The notes beneath the pieces are model-generated. The model had not been told where the DNA came from. It made no database searches and was given only the letters and a program-made list of their open reading frames with translations. Of a stretch of DNA of 5,575 nucleotides, positions 679 through 2,253 are shown piece after piece. The translations under genes and the position numbers were made by a program. The DNA is from Deltaproteobacteria bacterium (GTDB lineage Bacteria > Desulfobacterota > Syntrophia > Syntrophales > UBA5619), in contig JAPLJW010000090.1 of the NCBI GenBank assembly GCA_026388365.1, positions 1-5,575 on the forward strand, given 5' to 3'. How positions within the stretch are numbered: position 1 is the stretch's first letter; each line of letters begins with the position of its first letter.

Positions 679-2253
679 ATGCGTTCCGACCGAATGAAAA
701 AGGGATTGGAGCGGGCGCCGCACCGTTCCCTGTTCAAGGCGCTGGGGCTGACGGACCAGGAAATCGAAAGGCCGATGATCGGCATCGCCAATTCCGCAAA
801 CGAACTTATTCCCGGCCACCTTCATCTGCACCAGATCTCCGAGGCGGTCAAGGCGGGCATCCGGATGGCCGGAGGGACGCCGATGGAGTTCTTCACGATC
901 GGGATCTGCGACGGGATCGTCATGGGCCACGAGGGGATGAAGTACTCGCTGAGCGACAAGATCATCCCCGGGATGCTCATGGCTGCGGCGCGCCTCGACA
1001 TCCCGACCCTCGTGATCAGCGGCGGCCCCATGCTGCCCGGCGAGTTCCAGGGGAAAAAGATCGACCTGATCAACGTCTTCGAATACGTCGGCAAGGCCAA
1101 GATCGGGGCGATGACGATGGATGAGCTCCGCGATGCGGAGGGATGCGCCTGTCCGGGCGTCGGCTCCTGCGCGGGGATGTTCACGGCCAACTCGATGAAC
1201 TGCCTCACCGAGGTCCTCGGAATGGGACTCCCCGGAAACGGGACCGTCCCGGCCGTCTGGGCGGAGCGGATCCGTCTGGCGAAGGAAGCGGGGATGCAGG
1301 TCATGGAGCTGGTGAACCGGGACCTGCGGCCCTCCGCCATCATGACCGCAGAGGCCTTTGCAAACGCCATGACCGTGGATATGGCCTTTGGCGGATCGAC
1401 GAACACCTCGCTTCACCTGCCCGCGATCGCGAAGGAGGCAGGCGTGCCGCTGACACTCGAGACCTTCAATGCCTACAGCGATAAAACCCCGCACCTCTGC
1501 TCCATGTCGCCCGGCGGCCCCCACCACTTGAGCGATCTTCACCAGGCCGGAGGCATCCCCGCGCTGATGCAGGAACTCTCGCGCGGGGGTCTGATCCATG
1601 CCGGCGCCCTGACTGTCACGGGAAAAACGGTCGGCGAGAACCTGGCCGGAAAGAGGGTCCTGAACCCCGATGTGATTCGTCCCCTGGAGAAGCCCTACCA
1701 CGCCACGGGCGGCCTCGCCGTCCTCTTCGGCAACCTCGCCCCGGAGGGCGCCGTCGTCAAGCGCTCCGCCGTGGACGACGCGATGCTCCGGCACACCGGT
1801 CCCGCCCGCGTCTTCGACTCGGAAGAGCCGGCCATGCAGGCCATCCTGGACGGGAAGATCCAAAAAGGGGACGTCGTCGTCATCCGTTACGAAGGGCCGA
1901 AGGGCGGCCCGGGCATGCGGGAGATGCTCTCGCCGACCTCCGCCATCGTCGGAATCGGCCGGGACCGGGACGTTGCCCTCCTCACCGACGGCCGTTTTTC
2001 GGGCGGCAGCAAGGGCGCGGCGATCGGCCACATCTCCCCGGAAGCGGCGGAGGGGGGGCCCATCGCCGCGGTCCAGGAAGGAGACCGGATCGAGATCGAC
2101 ATCCCTGGAAAGAGGCTGAACCTCCTGATTTCCGACGAGGAGATGAAGGAGCGCCTCGCCCTGTGGAACCCGATCAAGAGAGAACTCAGGGGCTACCTGA
2201 AGCGCTACGCCAGCCTTGTCCGCTCCGCCCACACCGGCGCGACGTTCGAATAG
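679..2253 (+). CDS. ilvD: Dihydroxy-acid dehydratase with an internal in-frame deletion
   Basis: IlvD dehydrates 2,3-dihydroxy-isovalerate and 2,3-dihydroxy-3-methylvalerate to the 2-oxoacids that precede valine/leucine and isoleucine; it is a cytoplasmic Fe-S and Mg enzyme. Family landmarks in order: [13 protein letters not shown] (11-23), [10 protein letters not shown] (41-50), [15 protein letters not shown] (77-91), [14 protein letters not shown] (93-106), SGGPMLPG (114-121), [18 protein letters not shown] (158-174), [11 protein letters not shown] (237-246), [13 protein letters not shown] (404-416, with likely metal ligand E415) and [10 protein letters not shown] (437-446, with likely catalytic S441). 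The protein is 524 residues, whereas bacterial relatives usually have about 550-560. The shortfall lies at KYSL-S-DK. The family normally has about 27 residues ([11 protein letters not shown]... to IPN) between KYSL and an invariant CDK, and here they are missing and Cys is replaced by Ser92. Asp93 and Lys94 (the latter usually carbamylated to bind Mg) remain. The loss removes a cluster-ligand cysteine, so activity is doubtful. Identity is certain; function is not. The gene has its own terminator and looks monocistronic. Confidence 0.95.

Follow-up and report, generated by a model that had tools for sequence, protein, structure and literature searches.

The window analysed here, a stretch of 5,575 nucleotides from a Deltaproteobacteria bacterium placed in the Syntrophales (GenBank assembly GCA_026388365.1, contig JAPLJW010000090.1), carries the end of an oxidoreductase gene, an ilvD gene for dihydroxy-acid dehydratase (DHAD) with an internal piece missing, and two genes for serine hydrolase-like proteins. 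Its features are:

2..277, forward strand: end of the gene for the gamma subunit of a 2-oxoacid:acceptor oxidoreductase (PF01558), a neighbour also found in the nearest relative, L009
352-390: two 19-nt arms that form a perfect inverted repeat and are 1 nt apart (GAATAGGGGGACACGATGC / GCATCGTGTCCCCCTATTC), lying after the oxidoreductase gene and ahead of ilvD
666-672: AAGGAGG, resembling a ribosome-binding site, read by eye from the sequence
679..2253, forward strand: ilvD of 524 aa that has lost 81 bp in frame, from profile matches and the open frame
933..969, forward strand: imperfect inverted repeat with the join at its centre, arms at 933-940/962-969 (8 bp) and 946-949/953-956 (4 bp) and a 3-nt loop
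952..954, forward strand: join of the deletion at codon 92 (AGC, Ser92), placed by comparison with the L009 gene, with a 2-nt GC overlap
955..960, forward strand: Asp93-Lys94 of the CDK motif, retained and adjoining the join; a predicted Mg-ligand pair, from the sequence and the ligand roles given in PMC5770437 and PMC9543379
2588-4105: gene of family PF00144 (beta-lactamase-like serine hydrolase), downstream of ilvD and convergent with 4203-5573
4203-5573: another PF00144 gene (beta-lactamase-like serine hydrolase), downstream of ilvD and convergent with 2588-4105

The nearest relative for which DNA is available, L009, is a Syntrophaceae MAG contig (PLLC01000054.1) that encodes an intact IlvD of 551 aa. 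Positions 1-314 of the window match L009 4580-4893 at 96% identity, and the DNA downstream of the window ilvD showed no match to L009. In this lineage, ilvD lies outside an ilv operon and directly after an apparent three-gene 2-oxoacid:ferredoxin oxidoreductase set (L009 2355-4856), of which the gamma subunit alone is assigned by family match (PF01558), the names of the other subunits being our presumption. The inverted repeat at 352-390 resembles a dispersed hairpin element. On the far side of ilvD, the NCBIfam matches of the two PF00144 genes all fall far below the cut-offs (among the matches listed, 25 of 40 and 25 of 39).

The frame at 679-2253 is open and free of stops throughout, encoding 524 aa, and its product belongs by descent to the IlvD/EDD family as a dihydroxy-acid dehydratase: it scores above the curated cut-offs of NCBIfam NF002068 (750 bits, cut-off 644) and TIGR00110 ilvD (719 bits, cut-off 618) and contains both IlvD/EDD domains (Pfam PF00920 and PF24877). 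The NCBIfam match is split into two stretches, the better of which starts at residue 93, directly past the join; the intact L009 protein matches in a single stretch, with 828 bits for NF002068 and 794.5 bits for TIGR00110. Signature 2 with the catalytic Ser is kept at residues 434-444, and CPGVGSC, one Cys of which is a presumed cluster ligand, is retained at residues 158-164. In signature 1, which PMC5770437 gives as C-D-K-x(2)-P-[GA]-x(3)-[GA] alongside the pattern of signature 2, the Cys is missing. According to PMC9543379 and PMC5770437, this Cys is a cluster ligand strictly conserved throughout the DHADs, and Mg is bound by the Asp and the (modified) Lys of CDK. The conserved cluster cysteines of a working Fe-S DHAD are thus incomplete in the window protein, with CPGVGSC present and the CDK Cys gone; the putative Mg ligands, Asp93-Lys94, are kept. 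A further ligand site separates the two DHAD types, [4Fe-4S] enzymes having Gly where [2Fe-2S] enzymes have the first Cys (PMC9543379). The window IlvD has PGH at residues 45-47 in this column, as matched by eye, and is therefore grouped with the [4Fe-4S] type; it is like the E. coli-type [4Fe-4S] DHAD in having Gly and not Cys at the first site, but unlike it in lacking the CDK ligand Cys and the predicted strand before it.

The window gene is shorter than that of L009, to which its DNA is 96.7% identical before the site and 94.0% after it, by exactly 81 bp, corresponding to 27 residues (SREL...PNC) that include the conserved CDK Cys. An earlier note, made from the letters of the window alone, had claimed a clean in-frame loss of about 27 residues, including the CDK Cys, from an otherwise normal gene, and had proposed counting the gap in an alignment; the count against intact relatives of 551 aa gives 27 residues and bears this out, and the rest of the gene is indeed normal, with an open frame of 524 aa, the other motifs kept and ordinary constraint. 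Outside the gap, the protein is 93-96% identical in amino acids to Syntrophaceae IlvD proteins (L009, PLLC01000054.1; P0002-P0006, P0009 and P0012), with the same start and end and, in L009, the same upstream 2-oxoacid oxidoreductase gene; the relatives have 551 aa, whereas the window protein is without the 27 residues. The join falls after gene base 274, 275 or 276 (window 952-954), three equivalent placements that arise because both ends have 2 nt (GC) in common. An overlap of at least 2 nt is found at 24% of the 1515 possible placements of an 81-bp loss, so the GC overlap is not notable. Beyond these 2 nt, no direct repeat joining both ends was found in L009, and collapse of a repeat by the assembler is therefore unlikely. 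One part of the earlier note has to be corrected: Ser92 was said to stand where Cys should be, whereas 92% of the 182 relatives' sequences have Ser at the position preceding the block (KYSLS-SREL...NC-DK). A Cys-to-Ser substitution at residue 92 is accordingly rejected, Ser92 being the ancestral Ser in front of the block (KYSLS/...C/DK), and no such change needs assuming.

The short form is confined to the window among the sequences examined. Two protein searches, each yielding its best 120 matches, gave 182 distinct proteins, 62 of them new in the second search. Relatives listed by the first (best 120 of 7994 scored proteins) are 546-565 aa long; the second used residues 74-113, spanning the join, as query and returned 4110 candidates, 3999 of them significant, with the best 120 listed. 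All 182 other proteins have the 27 residues and the Cys between the YSL-type motif and DK, the CDK Cys being present in 182/182, and the window protein alone is without them. The top score of the junction query was 60 bits (among the best 120 of 4110) and the window's own protein reached 74 bits in a local run, so any protein sharing the join should have topped the list; no other protein with the 27-residue gap appeared among the matches listed by this search. Since the protein database consists of clusters at 90% identity and the best 120 were taken per search, there is room for a short form inside a cluster. At the DNA level, 110 loci were taken, a few of them representing the same place twice; L108 was left out for a run of N at the site, and in an alignment-based count the block is ungapped and CDK present in 109 of the 109 loci spanning it. 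A split match at the CDK motif in G015 was considered as a second case and rejected, as it reflects this run of N (L108). Close homologs with the short form are thus absent from the 182 proteins and the 109 spanning loci. Phage records (near mode) gave no match, and none of the 10 stretches of viral contigs that matched the pattern encodes a relative. Among the titles listed by a literature search, none concerns such a short DHAD, and one may nonetheless be in print.

Selection on the remainder of the gene looks to have been of the usual kind. Outside the gap, dN/dS is 0.106 for the window against L009, 0.095 for the window against L001 and 0.075 for L009 against L001, and the values of the window and L009 differ little when taken to L008 (0.099 and 0.104), L003 (0.131 and 0.122) and L005 (0.133 and 0.136). 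Silent changes were polarised by taking L001 as the outgroup, and replacements by the majority state in five relatives. This places 29 synonymous and 9 nonsynonymous changes on the window branch, against 28 and 10 on the L009 branch, with 2 synonymous and 3 nonsynonymous changes unpolarised; a simple Poisson model rejects, at the 5% level, an unconstrained share of the window branch above about 7%. The nine polarised replacements on the window branch are all away from the join, I111L being the closest, and the three that could not be polarised stand apart from this count. The gene is hence unlike a decayed pseudogene with relaxed constraint or further lesions: it is stop-free, has a dN/dS of 0.106 and shows branch counts like those of its relative. 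As the rest of ilvD is normally constrained, any loss of function would be recent, and the state of the gene, judged from its sequence, fits only a very young null allele if it is a pseudogene at all. Normal constraint outside the gap is equally expected for an artefact or a still-working enzyme.

For the protein, AlphaFold2 models were built from an alignment of 48 sequences for the intact L009 protein and 49 for the window protein. In the intact model, a helix (92-107) and a strand (112-116) fall within, or very nearly within, the lost block 93-119. In the window model, pLDDT falls below 50 at residues 83-93, and its block means are 46 (81-90) and 69 (91-100), where the intact model, itself dipping near the join (71 in block 81-90), has 71 and 91; no counterpart to the intact model's strand at 137-139 is listed for the window model. 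The TM score to 6ovt (M. tuberculosis IlvD) is 0.95 for both models by query length and, by target length, 0.88 for the window versus 0.93 for the intact model; to 5ze4, the window model scores 0.94 by query length. Both structures are described as being of the [2Fe-2S] type, and neither the helix nor the strand of the lost block is present in the window model. The global DHAD fold is still built around the gap in the AlphaFold2 model, a kind of model that does not measure stability. Around Ser92, which the earlier note had proposed to model, confidence drops at the join, and the lost block corresponds to a predicted helix and strand. We infer that the 524-aa protein would be a null or nearly null enzyme.

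The DNA around the join may hold a clue to how the piece was lost. In the window, the join lies near the tip of a hairpin with a z score of -3.1 (0 of 200 shuffles as stable), and the intact L009 stretch folds less remarkably (z -1.6, 16 of 200 shuffles as stable). The arms in L009, an imperfect inverted repeat with 13 of 17 positions matching, enclose 84 nt, 81 of which are absent in the window; arms as good occur at 0.9% of the 1515 positions where the L009 gene could lose 81 bp, counting the actual site, in a test that was made post hoc, after seeing the site, and with the best of the three equivalent placements. PMC4134008 reports that hairpin templates give rise to slippage in vivo, in vitro and in PCR, where thermostable polymerases make deletions on such templates. 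In the slippage model set out there, short direct repeats on either side of the hairpin bound the deleted piece; the window, in contrast, retains the arms and loses the loop only. Hairpin-driven replication slippage is not adopted as the settled cause, since the arms are kept, the model needs direct repeats and the test was post hoc. With the arms kept and the model mismatched, the context is compatible with a real mutation as well as with an in-vitro artefact and proves neither, and the inverted repeat as the context of the deletion is suggestive only.

We consider it probable, with room for doubt, that an ordinary Syntrophales-type ilvD has suffered a recent inactivating deletion in a single event. 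In the proposed sequence of steps, an ordinary Syntrophales ilvD, of a class thought to carry a [4Fe-4S] cluster, would recently have lost 81 bp at once, and the quasi-palindrome whose arms flank the lost piece may have favoured the deletion, which we offer as a suggestion only. The resulting protein would be unable to hold the catalytic Fe-S cluster or to fold its N-terminal domain normally, giving a null allele, and the cell would then depend on branched-chain amino acids from outside or on a second DHAD-like gene. The short form is seen on a single contig, with no copy elsewhere among the sequences examined, and this single occurrence also fits the main alternative, which we regard as a serious if rather unlikely one: the deletion is absent from the organism, whose cells have a normal 551-aa IlvD, and was made during library amplification or assembly, for example by a polymerase jump across the hairpin in a low-coverage contig. 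Such an origin would agree with an ilvD without decay, with the inverted-repeat arms and the stable window hairpin at the join, and with the reported PCR deletions by thermostable polymerases on hairpin templates (PMC4134008). However, the overlap at the join is just 2 nt, so that the k-mers across it should stem from real molecules and not from a collapsed repeat; reported slippage deletes between direct repeats, whereas here the arms are kept and the loop alone is lost; and the rarity of the arms comes from a post hoc test with the best of three equivalent placements.

A working, altered enzyme without the CDK cysteine, be it through a modified cluster, as a dehydratase that relies on metal only or in another function, is improbable. 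The frame, the second signature and the other motifs are all kept, purifying selection extends over the whole window branch, and the predicted global fold is still DHAD-like; yet a frame survives one in three random deletions, the form is absent from all sequences examined, polarised replacements do not gather at the join, the lost block is a predicted helix and strand in a region where the model is unsure, and the CDK Cys is strictly conserved across the family. That a DHAD could be active without this cysteine and its strand, through another ligand or a different cofactor arrangement, we hold to be very improbable. The earlier note had offered recent inactivation, an altered enzyme and an artefact as options; the list stands, but its altered enzyme fares badly, the form being unshared, the join free of a substitution cluster and the helix and strand predicted lost. 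A gene that was dispensable all along, in an organism that uses a second DHAD-family gene while the window locus drifts, has hardly any likelihood, although the genome of L009 (G001) contains ilvC and a second, full-length DHAD-family gene that is 54% identical to the first and over the same NCBIfam cut-offs. This paralogue is located at L083 317-3075, next to an ORF that we take to be pdxA-like, so it may be a sugar-acid dehydratase and serve sugar-acid use. Moreover, no drift is visible in the window ilvD, and L083-type copies are seen in only 5 of the 11 genomes with a close orthologue (at least 84.9% identity to L009; two hits partial). These 11 are among 21 family genomes searched, 18 of which have a PF00920 match and 12 an ilvC over the cut-off; the paralogue counts cover the loci of 30 out of 39 match rows, in genomes that are possibly incomplete. 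By analogy with these relatives, a back-up DHAD gene is possible for the cell from which the window came.

A recent inactivating deletion thus remains the reading we favour. If the deletion is present in the organism, a gene of valine and isoleucine biosynthesis would only recently have become a null allele in a Syntrophales population. This might show amino-acid dependence at the moment of its emergence, and nature would have provided a direct test of whether the enzyme can do without the CDK strand; an artefact, on the other hand, would be a reminder to treat single contigs with caution. Neither reading alters what is known of DHADs, and the deletion allele is a curiosity, not a new kind of enzyme.
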